This document shows, piece by piece, positions 860 through 8,246 of a stretch of 8,246 nt of DNA. The stretch is taken from the NCBI GenBank assembly GCA_026692885.1, contig JAPLNJ010000910.1, positions 1-8,246 on the forward strand. Reading direction: 5' to 3'. Within the stretch, counting starts at the first letter, position 1; each line of letters begins with the position of its first letter. Below the pieces are notes generated by a model, which ran no database searches, was not told where the DNA came from, and saw only the letters and a list, made by a program, of their open reading frames with translations. The translations under genes and the position numbers were made by a program. This DNA is from Planctomycetota bacterium (GTDB taxonomy: Bacteria > Planctomycetota > Planctomycetia > Pirellulales > Pirellulaceae).

Positions 860-3800
860 GTGATGGACGGTGCAAGGGTTGTCACGCCAACGGTTCCCCA
901 GGGTGACGCCTGGGAATGTGGGGTGGCCGCTCTGGCCATTCTGATGGGCTATTACGGCTGTCATGTTCCTCTGGAGGAGTTGCGCCGCGCCACCGGGGTG
1001 TCCCGCCAGGGCAGCAACTTTCTCCAGATGCGCGACGCTGCCCGCCGCTACGGGCTGCGTGCCCGTGTCTTTCGCAAGTCTCCCGAGCATCTGGCCGAGG
1101 CAGGTTTTCCCTGCATCGTCCACATGAATTTCAACCACTTTGTGGTGGTCGAGGGGATGCGGAACGGGCGCGTCTTCCTGAACGATCAGGGCTGCGGCCC
1201 GCATGACATCTCTTGGGATGAATTCGACGAGGGGTTCACCGGCCTGGTGATGACGCTGGAGCCGGGGGAGGAAGCGGTGCTGCGCCGCCGTCCTCCCGCG
1301 CGCTGGCTGATATTGTGCCGTCAACTGCTTCCGGCCCGCCGAGCGCTGGTGGCGGCTGCACTGACGAGCATGGTTTACGGACTCGCCATTGCAGGCTTCG
1401 CCTGGTCGCTCGCCGCCCGCCTCGACGAAGCTGCCGGGCCGGGGAGTGACGCCATCTCGGCTGCCAGCCGCCTCCCCAGGCTCGGCCGAAAAATAACTCC
1501 CTCGCCCCGGTACTCCGGGGAGAGGGTTGGGGTGAGGGGCAACGCCGTTAAGGATTTTGGTAGCCGAATTCGCCAGAATTCGGGTGTTTGGCGAGAATCC
1601 CCGAAGTCTGGCGACTTCGGCTACGATGTACGTGCCGGTTTTTGCCCGCGTCAAAATCCTTCACGGCGTTGGGTGAGGGGGTTGATGGCAAATGACGAAG
1701 ATATTCTTCGGCCGTACCCCAGTTCAGCCTTGGGCTCCGCATGGCCCACAGCGTGGGTTCTGTTGGCACTTCTCTCGCTCGTAGGGCGAGGATACTGTCT
1801 GGAAAAAGCAGGAGATGCTCTGGTGGCAGCACACGTTCCCCGTGCGCTGCACCAGATCTTCGGATTGCCTTCGGCCTACTTCACACTGCGGTTCCCCGAC
1901 GGAGTGGCTGCCCACGCCACGGCGGGCCGTGACCTGGCCATCCTGGCAACGGGCCCATTGGGCACCACGCTGTTGGATATGGCAGCGGCGGGGATCGTCT
2001 TCGTGGCTCTCTGGTTGGCATCGCCCGTATTCGGCTTGGCAGCGTGCGGACTGATCGCTGTCTTCTTGACCGTTCTGTGGCGGCTCTATGGGCGCCGCGA
2101 GGGATCCTGGCGGCGCGTCCGCCACACGGGTGAGGAAGCTGTCGGGTTCTCTGCCGGGCGGTTGGCAAACATCGAGAGTGCAAAACTTGCCGGTCGCGAC
2201 GCAGAGACGTTCTCCGGCATTGCCGGGATGCAGGCCAATAGCTTGAATGCGGCTCAACCGTGGTGGGGAAATCTGGCCTGTGCTTCCCTGGTCGCCTGGG
2301 CAGGGGTGGCCGTGGTACTGGTGATGGTCTTCACCTGGGTGGCGTCATCGACTTTGGGTCCCGCACTCAGCACGGGGCAGGCGGCCGCAGGGGTGCTGCT
2401 GCTGTCCGCGCTGGGCGTGTGGCTGCACGGGTTGATCAGGCAGGGAAGTGAACTCTCGCGTTTGCAGGATCTCGCCGTGGAACTCGATGAGTTGTATGCG
2501 CACGAGCCCGCGGGGACGGGTTTCGCCATCCGGGGACGAGAGGCCTTCGAGCCTGTCCCAGAAGCGACTTCAGCCTGTACGACGGCCCTCCGAGGCCGTC
2601 GGGAATCTTCGAATTCCCGGCCTCGACGGCCTCGGAGGGCCGTCGTACAGATGTCCTGCGACGGGCTCGTAGACGGACCTGACTCGCACCGGCGATCCGC
2701 CCCTGCGAATTCCTCCGTGCCCACGCCGCATGACGCGGTTCCCGGCACGGTGACTCTGGAGAACGTTCGCTTTGGCTACTCCACGTCGCAGCCCCCGTTG
2801 TTGGACGGGGCTTCTCTCTGGATCCAGCCGGGGCAACACGTGGGGCTGACCGGCGAGTCCGGCGTCGGGAAATCCACGCTGGCCCGCCTCGTGTGCGGCC
2901 TGCACGATCCCTGGGAGGGGAAGATATCGGTCACCGGCGAGTGCGCCTTTGTGGGAGGCTATCCGACTCTCTTTGAGGGAAGCGTGCGCGACAACGTGAC
3001 GCTCTGGGACGCCCGTTTCAGCGAGGGCGAGGTGATTGCCGCGTTGCAGGATGCGTGTTTGTGGGATTGCGTGGTTTCACGCGACAAGGGCCTGGATGCC
3101 GGCGTGCGAGCTGACGGCTCGAACCTCAGCGGCGGCCAGCGCCGCCGCCTGATGATCGCGCGCGCTCTGGTGCATCGCCCCGGCCTGCTGGTCTTGGATG
3201 AGACGCTGGACAGTCTGGACGCCACGTTGGCTGAGGAGATCCTCGCCAGACTCCGCTGTCGGGGCTGCACGGTCCTTTTGGTCACGCGCCGCAATGCCAC
3301 CCTGGCTGGCTGCGAAGCCGTGCACCGGGTGAATGCGGGGCGCGTCGTTCCCGAGGCACGGCCGGAAAACGTCTCCCTCGCCCCGGTATCCCGGGGAGAG
3401 GGCTGGGGTGAGGGGCCGAATGGCGAATGCCGAGGTCTTTCTTCGGCCGTGCCTGAGTCGGAAATCGAGTCGTCCGTGAACCCTAGCGCTCCGGCCTGTG
3501 GCGGTGCGCTGCCATCGGCCTCCGACGGCGCGCCGTTCCGGATGAGTGAGTGCCCACGGGAGGTGCTGAGCGTGCTCGCGGCCATTGCCCGTGTACTGCC
3601 GGGCGGTCGCATCACGGTTCCCGACCGGTTGATGATTGCCTCGCAGGTCGAGCCGGTGCGGGCTGCGGCGCAGCTCATGGGACTTTATTTGCGTCGCGTG
3701 CGATTGCGTCCTGCTGGTTGGTGGCGGGAAGATCATGGCCCCCTGATCGCCTTTCGAGGTGATCGCCCCGTCGCTTTGCTGCCTGCGCCCGGTTCGGGTT

Positions 3801-5893
3801 ATCGCATTTTCGATCCGGTGCTCGGTCGTCCTGACTCGGTGGATGGAACGCGGGCTGCCGAGCTATCTCTGGATGCTTTCATGCCGTACCGACGGCAGAC
3901 TGATCGGAAGACATCCTTGCTGCGTTTGTTGTGGCAAGCCTGGTGCGCGGCCAAGGGAGACGCCGCTCTGGCTATAGTCGGCATGGCGGCCTCCTGGTTG
4001 GTCTGGCTGGGACTCATGCTGCTGCCGCTGGTATCGTGGCGGGGAGCCGCTCCCACAGACCAGGCGTTCCTGGCCCTGCTGTCGGGCCTGGGGATTGTGG
4101 GCGGCGCTGGCGGGCTGGGACTGGCGGCAAGCGTGGCTTTGGTGCGCTGGCAGGGCCAGGCGCTGCTGACCATCCAGACAGCAGTCTGGGCACGCCTGCT
4201 GCGATTGCCTGTCGCCTTCTTCCGGTACGCCTCGCCTGCTCAATTGGCCGGATGGGCGGAGCAGACCGGAGAGCTTCTGAAGCACTCGGTCAGCGCTCCG
4301 GTGCGGATTCTGAGCGGAGCGACAGGCTGCATCGCCGGATTGGCGGTGCTGGCCTGCATGGATTTTTCTCTGGCGACGTGGGCTTGCGTGCTGCTCATCC
4401 CTGGCCTGCTCGTGCCACCCTTATGTGCCTGGAACGAAAGCCGCTTTACGCGGCAAGCATTCACTTGCGGCAGACGCAATGGGGCTCTCGCCCAGGGCCT
4501 GTTGAGGGATATTCTGAGCATGCGCATTCTCGGCACGCATCGCTTCGTCGGAGCACGCTGGGAGAGCGGATTTGCCGTGGAGTATAAGCTCCGGCGGTGC
4601 GCCCAGCGCTGGCGTCATGGTGCCGATATCGTTGCAGCGATTCATCCGGTGGCTGGTTTAGCGCTGTTCCTGGCCTGGTCTCCTGAAGTGAGCCGGGTGA
4701 CGCTGGCCTGCTCCGGCTTTGTGTTTGTCTTCTGTACCGGTCTGGTCGAGAGTGTGGCCGGAGCCGTCGCAAAATGGATTCGTCTGCTTCCCACGGCCGA
4801 GCGGATGCGTCCGATCCTCGAAACGGAAACCGAGCGGCGCGAGGCGGATCGGGATATCGGGCCACTCGACGGTTGCCTGACGGCGACCGGCCTCTGTTTT
4901 ACCTACCCCGACACGCACCTGCCCGCCCTCCGGGACGTATCGTTCCACGCCGCAGCGGGCGAAATCGTCGCCCTCACCGGACCCTCCGGCAGCGGGAAAT
5001 CGACCCTCGTGCGTTTGCTGTTGGGATTCGAAGAGCCGGCTGCCGGTGAAATCCGTTACGGAGAGTACCGCCTGGACGAAATCGACCGCGAGGCGGCTCG
5101 TCGTTGGATGGACGCCGTCCTGCAGGACGAACTGCTCCCGGCGGCCACCATCCGCACACACATCGCCGGGCAGTCGCCCCACTCGCTCGATCAGGTATGG
5201 GAAGCAGCACGTCTGGCCTGCCTGGACCAAGATTTGACCCCCACGCCCCTGGAACTGCAACAACTGGCGTTCAGTGACAAGCTCTCGACGGGACAGGTGC
5301 AGCGCATTCAAATTGCCCGCGCTCTGCTGCATCGCCCGCGGATTCTCTTCTTGGACGAGACGACCAGCGGACTCGAGGCAGTGGCCCTGCAGGAAGTGCT
5401 GGCCCGCATCCGCGCCATGAGGACCACCTGTATCCTGGTGACGCACCGCCCGGATGTGATCGCCCTGGCGGATCGGGTCTATGTATTGCACGGCGGAAGC
5501 ATGGTTGCCGAACACGGCACCCGTGCGGCTGCCGGATGGGTTCAGCCGGATTCCCCACAGGGACAACGCCCGGGAGGCCACACGGGGACAGACCAAGAAA
5601 TGACAACCCGCGGGGAACCCACGGACCGGCCGAAGAATACTCTCCGCATTTGCCTCTCGGCCCCTCACCCCGCCCCTCTCCCCGGAGTACCTGGGCGAGG
5701 GAGTTATTTTTCGGCCGTGCCCAAGCAGCCCTTGTTTCGGCAGAAAGCCCTCGACCGTTTGCAGACGCCCGAGCTACTCGATCGGCTGGTGACCTTCCCG
5801 GTTTCAAAAAGTTGGCTGGCAATTGCGGCTGTGGGCTGGCTGGTGCTTTGCCTGCTTGCCTGGGTTCTCCTGACAGCAATGAGGTTGCCATGA
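860..5893 (+). CDS. Fused NHLM exporter: C39 peptidase-ABC + ABC + truncated HlyD N-terminus (1677 aa)
   Basis: Presumed inner-membrane leader peptidase and exporter of the NHLP peptide. Start is GTG 860 or ATG 863; AAGGGA (848-853) serves either. Domains in order: C39 peptidase 1-135 (oxyanion Gln14, Cys20 in WECGVAAL, His93, Asp109, all present); TMD1 ~160-530, six helices, with a repeat-derived insert 207-287 between helices 1 and 2; repeat-derived linker ~572-598; NBD1 ~629-830 (Walker A GESGVGKST 665, LSGGQ 756, LLVLDE 776, but Gly700 for the Q-loop Gln and Arg810 for the switch His); repeat linker 832-865; NHLM-ATPase N-domain ~897-1012; TMD2 ~1034-1300; NBD2 ~1339-1553 (Walker A GPSGSGKST 1374, Gln1422, LSTGQ 1475, ILFLDE 1495, His1529); repeat linker 1588-1621; HlyD-like start 1624-1677 (LFRQKALDRLQTPELLDRL plus one membrane helix 1651-1674). 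Family members are usually separate ~700-residue proteins. The intact frame argues for function; a decaying fusion is possible. Confidence 0.9.
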   Translation: MMDGARVVTPTVPQGDAWECGVAALAILMGYYGCHVPLEELRRATGVSRQGSNFLQMRDAARRYGLRARVFRKSPEHLAEAGFPCIVHMNFNHFVVVEGMRNGRVFLNDQGCGPHDISWDEFDEGFTGLVMTLEPGEEAVLRRRPPARWLILCRQLLPARRALVAAALTSMVYGLAIAGFAWSLAARLDEAAGPGSDAISAASRLPRLGRKITPSPRYSGERVGVRGNAVKDFGSRIRQNSGVWRESPKSGDFGYDVRAGFCPRQNPSRRWVRGLMANDEDILRPYPSSALGSAWPTAWVLLALLSLVGRGYCLEKAGDALVAAHVPRALHQIFGLPSAYFTLRFPDGVAAHATAGRDLAILATGPLGTTLLDMAAAGIVFVALWLASPVFGLAACGLIAVFLTVLWRLYGRREGSWRRVRHTGEEAVGFSAGRLANIESAKLAGRDAETFSGIAGMQANSLNAAQPWWGNLACASLVAWAGVAVVLVMVFTWVASSTLGPALSTGQAAAGVLLLSALGVWLHGLIRQGSELSRLQDLAVELDELYAHEPAGTGFAIRGREAFEPVPEATSACTTALRGRRESSNSRPRRPRRAVVQMSCDGLVDGPDSHRRSAPANSSVPTPHDAVPGTVTLENVRFGYSTSQPPLLDGASLWIQPGQHVGLTGESGVGKSTLARLVCGLHDPWEGKISVTGECAFVGGYPTLFEGSVRDNVTLWDARFSEGEVIAALQDACLWDCVVSRDKGLDAGVRADGSNLSGGQRRRLMIARALVHRPGLLVLDETLDSLDATLAEEILARLRCRGCTVLLVTRRNATLAGCEAVHRVNAGRVVPEARPENVSLAPVSRGEGWGEGPNGECRGLSSAVPESEIESSVNPSAPACGGALPSASDGAPFRMSECPREVLSVLAAIARVLPGGRITVPDRLMIASQVEPVRAAAQLMGLYLRRVRLRPAGWWREDHGPLIAFRGDRPVALLPAPGSGYRIFDPVLGRPDSVDGTRAAELSLDAFMPYRRQTDRKTSLLRLLWQAWCAAKGDAALAIVGMAASWLVWLGLMLLPLVSWRGAAPTDQAFLALLSGLGIVGGAGGLGLAASVALVRWQGQALLTIQTAVWARLLRLPVAFFRYASPAQLAGWAEQTGELLKHSVSAPVRILSGATGCIAGLAVLACMDFSLATWACVLLIPGLLVPPLCAWNESRFTRQAFTCGRRNGALAQGLLRDILSMRILGTHRFVGARWESGFAVEYKLRRCAQRWRHGADIVAAIHPVAGLALFLAWSPEVSRVTLACSGFVFVFCTGLVESVAGAVAKWIRLLPTAERMRPILETETERREADRDIGPLDGCLTATGLCFTYPDTHLPALRDVSFHAAAGEIVALTGPSGSGKSTLVRLLLGFEEPAAGEIRYGEYRLDEIDREAARRWMDAVLQDELLPAATIRTHIAGQSPHSLDQVWEAARLACLDQDLTPTPLELQQLAFSDKLSTGQVQRIQIARALLHRPRILFLDETTSGLEAVALQEVLARIRAMRTTCILVTHRPDVIALADRVYVLHGGSMVAEHGTRAAAGWVQPDSPQGQRPGGHTGTDQEMTTRGEPTDRPKNTLRICLSAPHPAPLPGVPGRGSYFSAVPKQPLFRQKALDRLQTPELLDRLVTFPVSKSWLAIAAVGWLVLCLLAWVLLTAMRLP
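1479..1718 (+). repeat. 99-nt inverted-repeat element, copy 1, interrupted by a nested 141-nt repeat
   Basis: Ends GGCTCGGCCGAA (1479-1490) and TTCGGCCGTACC (1707-1718) form imperfect terminal inverted repeats. The conserved 41-nt core (CCCTCGCCCCGGTACTCCGG, 1499-1518, continuing to 1539) starts 20 nt from the end, as in the other copies. 240 nt less the 141-nt nested unit is exactly 99 nt. It is in frame (80 codons) and encodes residues 207-287, the loop between helices 1 and 2 of TMD1. CCCCAG on both flanks (1474-1479, 1717-1722) may be a target duplication. Confidence 0.85.
1540..1670. repeat. Nested palindromic element inside copy 1
   Basis: Flanked by a 10-nt direct repeat GGGTGAGGGG (1530-1539 and 1671-1680), giving a 141-nt step that keeps the frame. 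Outer arms 1541-1558 and 1653-1670 pair 17 of 18. Inside is a second hairpin, 1560-1584 with 1600-1624 (23 of 25 paired, GTAGCCGAATTCGCCAGAAT type). The arrangement shows two successive insertion events, both translated. Confidence 0.8.
2575..2650. repeat. Perfect 27-bp inverted repeat in the TMD1-NBD1 linker
   Basis: Arms 2575-2601 and 2624-2650 are perfect reverse complements (begin CTGTACGACGGCCCTCCGAG). The loop contains a further GGGAAT/ATTCCC stem. Weaker outer arms at 2548-2561 and 2656-2669 (12 of 14) suggest the whole inserted unit is ~120 nt. It is read through in frame, giving the Arg/Ser-rich residues ~572-598 that have no place in an ABC transporter. Unrelated in sequence to the 99-nt element. 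Confidence 0.85.
3355..3453 (+). repeat. 99-nt inverted-repeat element, copy 2
   Basis: Ends GGCACGGCCGGAA (3355-3367) and TTCGGCCGTGCC (3442-3453). The 41-nt core is at 3375-3415, again 20 nt in from the left end. Exactly 99 nt, 33 codons, same orientation as copy 1 but read in a different frame. It encodes residues ~832-865, precisely the joint between the end of NBD1 and the N-domain of the second half-transporter. Confidence 0.88.
5623..5721 (-). repeat. 99-nt inverted-repeat element, copy 3 (inverted)
   Basis: Reverse orientation; ends GGACCGGCCGAA (5623-5634) and TTCGGCCGTGCC (5710-5721). Core at 5661-5701, 20 nt from the end. Exactly 99 nt and in frame, encoding residues ~1588-1621, the joint between NBD2 and the HlyD-like stub. 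Confidence 0.88.
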
Positions 5894-6804
5894 ATCCTGA
5901 TCTGCTGAAACGCCTGGATGCGACGGAGGCGGTCCGGTTCACTTCGCTGACCCTGCTTCCCTGGCGTTCCCTGCCGGCCAAGGCGGCAAGGGAAGGACCG
6001 GTCATTGCCATCGGCCTCTCTTTGATCGGCCGACCCGTAGGTTTCGGACTGGCAGAACTCTGCCCCCCTCATGAGTGTGGCCACGTACGGTCAATTGCGG
6101 TTGTGCCAGCCTACCGGAGAAGGGGTGTCGGTGCGGCGTTGCTGGCGCGGCTGGAGAACGAGATTCTACGTCACGGTTATGCCAAAGCAAGCACGAGCTA
6201 TCTGCCTCATGCCCCCTCGGCACCTGCTTTCGAGCGGATGCTGCACAACAGCGGCTGGGAATCGCCCAGGCCGGAGAAGGTGGTTTGCCGGCTGGACGGC
6301 GAAGGAGCTGTCAGACTGATGCAAACTCCCTGGTTCACGTGTCTTTCCCTGCCCGCGGCGTTCAGCGTCTTTCCCTGGGTGGAATTGAAGGATGAAGACA
6401 AACAGAGGCTACTGGCCGCTCACGAACGGGAACCCGTATGGGAGGAAGGACTGGATCCCTTCCGGGGCATCGGGAAGCCCGAACCTGTGAACAGCCTGGG
6501 ACTGCTGTACCAAGGGGAGGTGGTCGGGTGGATGCTTACCGAGCGTCTTGCCCCGGGCCTATTGCGCTACACGAACCTCTTCGTGCGTCGGGAGCACCGC
6601 TCCGCCGGGCTCGGCATTGTCCTGCTGGCCGAAACCATCCGTCGGCAGTGGGAACATGAGGGGCATCTGGCGTGCCGTGGCGGTCTCTGGCAAACCCTCT
6701 GCAGCAACGCCCCCATGGTGAAGTTCATCCAACGCTACATGGCACCTTACCTGACCAAGATTGTGGAAACCTGTGAGTCCCGGAAGTCCCTGACGGGAAG
6801 CTGA
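5890..6804 (+). CDS. Tandem GNAT-family acetyltransferase (304 aa)
   Basis: Transfers an acyl group from acyl-CoA to an unknown acceptor, probably in the cytosol; no signal peptide or membrane helix is seen. ATG 5890 overlaps the transporter stop as ATGA, with GAGG at 5881-5884, so translational coupling is likely. Two GNAT folds occur in one chain: residues ~12-135 with motif A HVRSIAVVPAYRRRGVGAAL (65-84, CoA pyrophosphate loop RRRGVG), and ~145-290 with YTNLFVRREHRSAGLGIVLL (227-246, loop HRSAGLG). Both CoA loops look intact. Its place in the operon suggests acetylation of the peptide, of its Lys or N-terminus, or self-protection of the producer; this is inference. Double-GNAT proteins with one degenerate half are common, so only one half may be catalytic. 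Confidence 0.85.
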   Translation: MNPDLLKRLDATEAVRFTSLTLLPWRSLPAKAAREGPVIAIGLSLIGRPVGFGLAELCPPHECGHVRSIAVVPAYRRRGVGAALLARLENEILRHGYAKASTSYLPHAPSAPAFERMLHNSGWESPRPEKVVCRLDGEGAVRLMQTPWFTCLSLPAAFSVFPWVELKDEDKQRLLAAHEREPVWEEGLDPFRGIGKPEPVNSLGLLYQGEVVGWMLTERLAPGLLRYTNLFVRREHRSAGLGIVLLAETIRRQWEHEGHLACRGGLWQTLCSNAPMVKFIQRYMAPYLTKIVETCESRKSLTGS

Positions 6805-7238
6805 GTGGGAAATCAAAGGCGCTGCGTCAAAATAACTTGATCCAATAGGAATTTGTAATGCTGGCGAGTCTGGGATGGTTGCGATGAAGGACGCCCTAAT
6901 CTCTCACCCTAATCTTCCTCCGGCTGCATGGGAATGAAGGGAGAGATTAGGGGGAAAGATTAGGGTTCCGGCGCAGCCGGATAAGTTCACGATCTTGCTT
7001 GACGGCGGCCGAGCCGCAGGTTGGGACACTGTCCCGCTGCTGTGCACATCTTTGCAGCCAGCCAAAGGCTGGAAATACAAGCACGACGCGCAAGCGAGTG
7101 AGTCCGGGGTGGACCGGCAAGCGAAATCCAGACTCACTCGCTTGCGCGTCGTGCTTGTAAAATACCGGCCTCCGGCCCGTTTGAGGATGTGCACAGCAGT
7201 GGGACTCTGTCGCGACCCGGTCGGGACGGAGTCCCAAC
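6805..7238. other. Intergenic region rich in palindromes, no gene seen
   Basis: No ORF here looks like a protein. The stretch holds the CCCTAATCT repeat cluster (6894-6981) and most of the nested palindrome at 7018-7240. No U-tract terminator is obvious after the GNAT gene; the first strong hairpin downstream may define the transcript end. Confidence 0.6.
6894..6981. repeat. CCCTAATCT inverted/direct repeat cluster
   Basis: CCCTAATCTCTC (6894-6905) pairs with GAGAGATTAGGG (6941-6952). CCCTAATCTT (6907-6916) pairs with AAGATTAGGG (6956-6965). TCCGGCTGC (6919-6927) pairs with GCAGCCGGA (6973-6981). The three stems interleave rather than nest, so alternative folds compete. Confidence 0.75.
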
Positions 7239-7240
7239 CT
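7018..7240. repeat. Three-layer nested palindrome (223 nt)
   Basis: Outer arms AGGTTGGGAC (7018-7027) and GTCCCAACCT (7231-7240). Middle arms CCCGCTGCTGTGCACATC (7033-7050) with 7186-7203, 17 of 18 paired. Inner arms 7076-7104 and 7131-7159, a perfect 29-bp inverted repeat (TACAAGCACGACGCGCAAGC at its start) with a 26-nt loop. The inner unit is a repeat type I associate with planctomycete genomes. The layering suggests one palindrome inserted into another. Confidence 0.85.
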
Positions 7241-7523
7241 ACGCGGGCCGGGGTTCGACGCGGCCCTCGGCCGTTCTGGCGATTCGCTCCACGGCGTCCG
7301 GGTGAGCCAACTCGTCGAGCGCCAAGCGTGCCAATTCGACCAACGGCCGGACGGGGGGGGCCGTAGTCGCTTGCGTGCGCAACTGCTGGTCCAGCCGCTG
7401 CAGGTTGTCCACGGCGGCGACGACCAGTCGGTGGAGCAAAATGACCGCCTCGTCACTCAGCGGCGGCATTCCCAGATAGGTTTCCAGCCGCGAGCCGGCG
7501 CGGTAGCGGGGGAAATCCTCCAA
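7239..7523 (-). CDS. Hypothetical helical protein (94 codons), possibly a gene fragment
   Basis: TTG start at 7521-7523 with GGGAG 8 nt upstream. No in-frame ATG exists before the upstream stop, although an out-of-frame ATG (reading MRDGNLRWEFWG) lies just before and one frameshift would join them. The product (EDFPRYRAGSRLETYLGMPP, then Leu-rich amphipathic segments such as AVILLHRLVVAAVDNLQRLD) looks like genuine helical protein, not shadow translation. No family recognised. It follows the sigma/anti-sigma relics on the same strand and may be the remains of a further gene of that locus. Confidence 0.4.
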   Translation of the reverse strand: MEDFPRYRAGSRLETYLGMPPLSDEAVILLHRLVVAAVDNLQRLDQQLRTQATTAPPVRPLVELARLALDELAHPDAVERIARTAEGRVEPRPA

Positions 7524-8097: not shown

Positions 8098-8138
8098 GTC
8101 TCCCGCTTTCGCCGCCGGAGGCGGCTAAAGCGGGAGAC
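8098..8138. repeat. 19-bp hairpin with 3-nt loop
   Basis: Arms GTCTCCCGCTTTCGCCGCC (8098-8116) and 8120-8138 pair 18 of 19 around GGA. It may act as a bidirectional terminator or be a dispersed repeat; no U-tract follows on either strand. Confidence 0.7.
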
Positions 8139-8210: not shown

Positions 8211-8246
8211 CGCTCCGCCGTGACGACATGTCATCACGGCGGAGCG
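8211..8246. repeat. Inverted repeat reaching the window end
   Basis: CGCTCCGCCGTGA (8211-8223) and TCACGGCGGAGCG (8234-8246) pair perfectly; allowing one mismatch the pairing continues into the loop. The right arm ends at the window edge, so the element may be longer. Confidence 0.75.

Follow-up and report, generated by a model that had tools for sequence, protein, structure and literature searches.

Small palindromic repeats that persist within proteins, described most fully in Rickettsia, and repeats able to form an intrastrand triplex are two stories that are joined at the locus described here. The Rickettsia palindromic elements (RPEs) measure 105-146 bp in the accessible text of PMC2229807, and the available sections of PMC5896051 present QMITE2 of Coxiella as a MITE containing the known GTAG REP. 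In Escherichia coli MG1655 the TM motifs are, according to the accessible part of Holder et al. 2015 (PMC4666352), always intergenic and unlinked to transposons, phages or plasmids. No explanation of how intrastrand-triplex repeats spread was found in the open literature. Here we analyzed a stretch of 8,246 nucleotides (hereafter the window) in which, as the most probable reading, a 97-bp non-autonomous MITE-like element inserted three times into one exporter gene, whose product is still encoded at full length. With a carrier of the triplex motif that has inverted ends and target-site duplications (TSDs), the spread of triplex repeats becomes testable.

The exporter locus and its insertions

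The window contains an export locus of the NHLP/proteusin type, comprising a leader peptide gene, a 1677-codon ORF and a GNAT gene, all on the forward strand. The NHLP-type leader peptide gene (69-431) matched TIGR03793 with 30.2 bits, below the cut-off of 50.9. The ORF (860-5893, 1677 aa) consists of a C39 peptidase-ABC1 unit resembling TIGR03796 (598.8 bits, below the cut-off of 853.3), fused to an ABC2 unit resembling TIGR03797 (503.5 bits, below the cut-off of 709.4) and followed by a short HlyD-N-like tail that resembles positions 1-39 of 421 in the HlyD-like TIGR03794 (E 1.8e-4). The structure model of its first part was similar to the peptidase-containing transporter PCAT1 (6v9z, E 2.7e-33). 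We read the ORF as a C39-peptidase ABC exporter of the NHLP/RiPP type with a second ABC unit joined to it. The GNAT acetyltransferase gene (5890-6804) overlaps its end by 4 nt. No transposase was recognized in the window by the family scan of its three main genes, no Rfam family reached its gathering score in the window, and no close relatives of the exporter ORF were confirmed in genome_contigs.

Two homologues, P0002 and P0003, share 56% and 55% identity, respectively, with the window protein and 89% with each other. By alignment, codon 3287-3289 of ABC1 encodes R in the window and S in these two proteins, at a position usually held by the switch histidine of the first ATPase. The histidine appears to be replaced there, which might make ABC1 the weaker member of an asymmetric ABC pair. 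At 5536-5893, ABC2 is joined to what appears to be the first part of an HlyD adaptor, ending just past a predicted membrane helix, and no further part of this adaptor was recognized in the window.

A first-pass annotation had described a 99-nt repeat present three times in this gene, and the three copies were recovered at 1479-1718 (A), 3355-3453 (B) and, in reverse orientation, 5623-5721 (C). Their pairwise identity over 99 nt (A taken without 141 nt) was 80 for A-B, 82 for A-C and 80 for B-C, and the best other 99-mer of the window matched the copies at just 43-45 of 99 positions. The reported terminal inverted repeats (TIRs) of about 12 nt were also found, with 10/12 (A), 11/12 (B) and 10/12 (C) positions pairing when counted on the outer 12 nt of the 99-nt unit, as was a core at a common offset, said to be 20 nt, which starts about 19-20 nt in. 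The copies are therefore real, but the fit of the TSDs redrew the boundaries of the unit from 99 nt to 97 bp.

In these revised limits, copy A extends over 1480-1717 including a nested insert (left part 1480-1539 and right part 1681-1717, forward strand), copy B over 3356-3452 (forward strand, in the ABC1-ABC2 linker) and copy C over 5624-5720 (reverse strand, between ABC2 and the HlyD-N-like tail). Each is bordered by 5-bp direct duplications, given here on the forward strand as located by the TSD test: CCCAG at 1475-1479 and CCCAG at 1718-1722 around A, CCGAG at 3351-3355 and CTGAG at 3453-3457 around B, and CCACG at 5619-5623 and CCAAG at 5721-5725 around C. Together they match at 13 of 15 bases (5/5 in A, 4/5 in B, 4/5 in C). 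A length of 5 at the ends of the 97-bp element was the best among the 7 lengths and 10 offsets tried, and the nine other symmetric offsets at this length gave only 1 to 7 matches. With length and offset fixed, 2 of 200,000 random placements were as good; since both had been picked by looking, the test was rerun with the 7 lengths and 10 offsets free, and none of 5000 random sets was as good. An insertion of 97 bp plus a 5-bp TSD brings 102 bp, and hence adds 34 codons. Fold z-scores were -5.1 for B, -2.9 for C and -7.8 for A with its insert. With its inverted ends and 5-bp TSDs the element does look mobile, as had been proposed, and in terms of the copy number expected of a MITE there are three copies in 8.2 kb and possible relatives in the sequences P0121-P0124 (see below).

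The 141-nt unit previously noted within A is present, but it consists of a separate palindromic element of 132 nt (1540-1671, forward strand, 20-nt ends CAACGCCGTTAAGGATTTTG, fold z -10.4) plus a 9-bp duplication, GGTGAGGGG, found on the same strand on its left (1531-1539) and right (1672-1680) with 9/9 bases matching. This nested element is unrelated in sequence to the 97-bp family. It would have jumped into A later, adding 132 + 9 = 141 bp or 47 codons. A fourth palindrome of the exporter ORF, missed by the first-pass annotation, belongs to another family and lies in the TMD-NBD linker (D, about 2548-2669, forward strand, ends set by eye). Its inner arms of 27 nt are perfect (2575-2601/2624-2650) and its fold z-score (-11.3 over 2549-2672) was the lowest among the inserts folded; no TSD was recognized around it. 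The exporter gene has apparently taken in five insertions of three families with its frame kept.

Further palindromes lie outside the exporter ORF, at 6894-6965, 7015-7243 (with 7076-7159 nested), 8098-8138 and 8211-8246, the last being the end of the window itself. Among plasmids, none matched the nested element, D or the palindromes of 7000-7260 with an E-value of 1e-5 or lower, and viral_contigs contained no exact copy of pieces taken from the core, from D, from the nested element or from the 7076 repeat.

The triplex core and related sequences

The core of the element, whose nature had gone unnoticed in the first reading, is a predicted BoxC/TM intrastrand-triplex motif. In A (1499-1539, forward strand) its three strands are CCCTCGCCCC / GGGGAGAGGG / GGGTGAGGGG; the cores of B and C lie at 3375-3415 (forward) and 5662-5702 (reverse). 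Judged by sequence, 9 of 10 triads form in A, 9 of 10 in B and 8 of 10 in C, all in a Y-R-R arrangement with a third strand compatible with reverse-Hoogsteen pairing. Letter for letter, the A and B strands equal those of E. coli TM#6 as given in Table 1 of PMC4666352, and their single mismatched triad is also that of TM#6, whereas the strands of C differ from it. These were the only sites of this kind in the window, and none was found in 5 block-shuffled windows. All three lie inside ORF 860-5893, unlike the intergenic copies of E. coli.

The core is widespread. The core of A as a query had matches in 5368 of 5426 E. coli genomes, at a median of 14 places (E<=10, a count made without a reversed control). 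Matches resembling the core of B were obtained in 365 of 72,556 plasmid records (E<=10, none covering 80% of the query), against 9 for the reversed query, and in 7 of 50,697 phages. The core of C matched 2322 plasmid records, 1996 of them from Klebsiella (again without a reversed control). A strict core pattern occurred 5 times in a Rhizobium plasmid and 9 times in an Azospirillum plasmid, and 0 times when written backwards. These plasmid, phage and E. coli matches led us to reject the idea that the core is a repeat private to the source organism. For the surroundings of the core outside the window, we took 16 distinct loci, 14 from these two plasmids and 2 from one E. coli stretch. None of the 16 had the inverted ends of the window element with both arms within 1 mismatch, and 1 of 16 was enclosed by some other 10-nt inverted pair.

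As for the complete element, 4 of the 46 candidate proteins in a region search with the peptide of A scored at E<=10. The first (P0121, E 8e-28), encoded on another contig, is the exporter gene itself, identical at 253 of 262 aa. It contains the nested element along with the left half of A, so that the left junction of A is seen on a second contig too. P0121 departs from the window inside the nested element, where the frame changes, and the protein ends soon after; past the divergence there appears, by eye, a reverse-frame copy of the left half of the 97-bp element. P0121 may represent a real broken allele, a composite element, or a mis-assembly or chimera.

The remaining three proteins are more distant. 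P0122 has an element peptide of the same length with 24 of 32 residues as in the frame of A, and P0123 and P0124 share 20/32 and 21/32 residues with the peptide of A (database E 1.5 each). Concerning the question of whether the repeat is private to the window, a peptide of the same length thus occurs also in the P0122 contig, though with a database E of only 0.63. Neither P0122 nor P0124 belongs to a Pfam family, and P0123 has the element upstream of its domain; the three yielded no further real gene carrying the element in frame. A peptide translated from the triplex core, ITPSPRYSGERVGVRG, occurs in ORFs of the P0122, P0123 and P0124 contigs, and these occurrences are perhaps annotation noise. 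The exact TIR-core pattern had 0 matches in genome_contigs and 0 in viral_contigs, the protein search with the peptide of C gave one candidate and none scored, and no literature match was found for the encoded element peptides.

Reading frame, insertion sites and alternative explanations

The three copies are read in different ways, A and B in different forward frames and C in reverse, and none stops the ORF, as originally remarked. The absence of stops is real, but as evidence it is weak, because each copy has most of its 6 frames open: 4 in A, 5 in B and 5 in C (2 of 6 in the nested element). Dinucleotide shuffles were as open as the actual copy in 2.2% of cases for C, 11% for A, 30% for B and 55% for the nested element, so that only C is unusual. 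Simulated insertion into the ABC2 stretch left the ORF open in 66% of cases for A, 83% for B, 80% for C and 31% for the nested element, giving a joint chance of frame survival for the four of 0.66 x 0.83 x 0.80 x 0.31 = ~0.14. Frame survival alone is not unusual, and open frames as proof of selection were rejected on account of the shuffles and this joint chance of about 14%.

The position of the inserts appears to be better evidence on selection than the open frames. The insertion points of A, D and B, i.e., the three within the span of P0002 that the test covers, all lie at most 5 residues from sites at which insertions of at least 5 aa are present in other homologues. Tolerant zones of this kind make up 8-12% of P0002, giving p-values of 0.0005-0.0016 that were computed after the fact; with a threshold of at least 3 aa these became 0.0009-0.007, and at a threshold of at least 10 aa the site of A falls outside the tolerant set. 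Two AlphaFold models, with mean pLDDT of 76.3 and 76.9, had long stretches below 50 only at residues 196-290 (A), 552-624 (D), 1-67 (the linker of B) and 737-829 (C), a disorder that is partly caused by the inserts themselves; the other low runs were two of three residues each, at chain ends.

The homologues also provide empty sites. Copy A was absent from all 25 homologues of at least 1250 aa that were aligned (own protein excluded; drawn from the best 120 of 1752 matches), one of which, P0024, also lacks the whole N-terminal region. P0002 and P0003 align on both sides of A and of D without either insert. Relative to them, the stretches present only in the window comprise 89 residues at A and 65 at D, while A with the nested element and duplications accounts for 81 residues and D for about 40; since the stretches are longer than the inserts, ordinary variation of the loops accounts for some of the difference. 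In the linker of B, P0002 is 28 residues shorter than the window, and P0002 and P0003 end before the site of C. The variable linker and the early ends of these homologues make the empty-site evidence weak at B and C. From these alignments we would rate it as good for A, fair for D and only suggestive for B and C. Likewise, the search for orthologue residues homologous to the inserts, suggested at the outset as a test, found none at A and D, but it says little at B and C. P0003 differs from P0002, in this otherwise 89% identical pair, by a 28-residue insertion after P0002 residue 712, in the ABC1-ABC2 linker, which seems to take insertions repeatedly. The proposal that insert B made the ABC1-ABC2 fusion was rejected, as P0002 and P0003 are fused without B.

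An unlikely alternative, although the strongest of those considered, is that a decaying exporter gene piles up palindromic repeats and its frame is open by luck. The chance of about 0.14 that four inserts leave the frame open is not small, P0121 is truncated soon past the nested element, and the HlyD-like tail is a mere fragment of TIGR03794 (1-39 of 421, E 1.8e-4). However, the ORF has neither stops nor frameshifts over 1677 codons, its catalytic and nucleotide-binding motif residues are, in the alignment, those of P0002 and P0003, and the inserts are placed at tolerant sites. The host domains also keep a third-position GC bias: GC3 was 0.72-0.81 in the four host domains measured versus 0.57-0.66 in the inserts, with values also low in the host stretches around C (0.59 at 5536-5618 and 0.67 at 5726-5890).

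Less likely still, the units might not be transposable at all, with BoxC units spreading and converting by replication slippage and recombination, the ends being just a longer repeat and the TSDs a coincidence. The intergenic E. coli TM motifs, unlinked to transposons in the accessible text of PMC4666352, would fit this, as would the 16 outside core loci without the inverted ends of the window and the one mismatch in each of the TSDs of B and C. Against it stand the TSD match of 13/15, which none of 5000 random sets equaled with length and offset free, the constant length of 97 bp with the same ends in both orientations, and the homologues without insert A.

We consider it improbable that usefulness, for instance as a longer linker or loop of the exporter, is the reason why the inserts were retained. 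One gene has kept A, B, C, the nested element and D, and homologues also have insertions at these points (e.g., the additional 28 residues of P0003 at the linker of B), but the element is read in three different ways to give these peptides, and the models show little confident structure at the inserts. An assembly artefact, with short-read contigs misjoined at repeats, is the least probable of all: P0121 does diverge inside the palindromic nested element and the window does end in a palindrome, but both flanks of A, D and B are collinear with P0002 and P0003, the left junction of A recurs in the separate contig of P0121, and the duplications and inverted ends are regular.

Insertion of a mobile 97-bp element therefore stays our preferred reading, and its steps can be sketched as follows. 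A putative trans-acting transposase would cut with a 5-bp stagger at CCNAG-like sites, and the partner IS of the element would carry the ends GCACGGCCGAA. As the element is GC-rich and poor in stops, most insertions into an ORF stay open. Copies landing in domains would be lost by selection, while those in the TM1-TM2 loop (A) and in linkers (B and C) could persist as unstructured peptide; by analogy with known exporters, the TM1-TM2 loop holding A would lie outside the cytoplasm. The triplex core, as a widespread repeat, may have been captured by the 97-bp element, or the element may descend from it. It is a more tentative suggestion, and one we hold to be doubtful, that in this lineage the added length of 34 codons and the stop-poor sequence let the element colonize coding DNA, with a possible role of the core in transposition or excision.

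Comparison with known repeat families

The G/C-rich BoxC/PIT/TM(ECO) motif, as described in the available sections of PMC4666352, has the same Y-loop-R-loop-R core as the window copies. The window core differs in that it sits in an ORF, within a unit of 97 bp that has inverted ends and is flanked by 5-bp duplications. Like the RPEs, in the portions of PMC2229807 and PMC10969869 at hand, the element is a small stem-loop palindrome with TIRs, lying in frame in a conserved protein gene, here in one gene. On the other hand, compared by description with the published accounts available, it is shorter (97 bp against 105-146 bp) and has three readings, 5-bp duplications and a triplex core. The likeness to RPEs proposed in the first-pass annotation thus holds for the way of working, in frame in a conserved protein, and not for membership of one of the ten RPE sequence families of Rickettsia, which the length does not support.

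ERIC, Correia and QMITE2 of Coxiella are, in the accessible text of PMC2229807 and PMC5896051, small non-autonomous elements of which some lie in ORFs, as here, whereas their lengths, duplications and cores, compared by description, differ as reported there. As far as that text goes, QMITE2 holds a REP as the window element holds BoxC, and it offers an earlier case of a known palindromic repeat carried on a mobile element. Our search of the open literature found no paper linking the triplex motif to an element with TIRs and TSDs. As far as open papers show, a BoxC triplex motif carried by an element with TIRs and TSDs is new, and so is the insertion of such an element into one ORF three times over. 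The presence of three copies in one gene with an unbroken frame hints that the usually intergenic BoxC repeat is able to move as a transposable element through coding DNA. On its sequence features, the element is best described as a MITE-like carrier of BoxC that resembles the RPEs in its working and is not classed among them.
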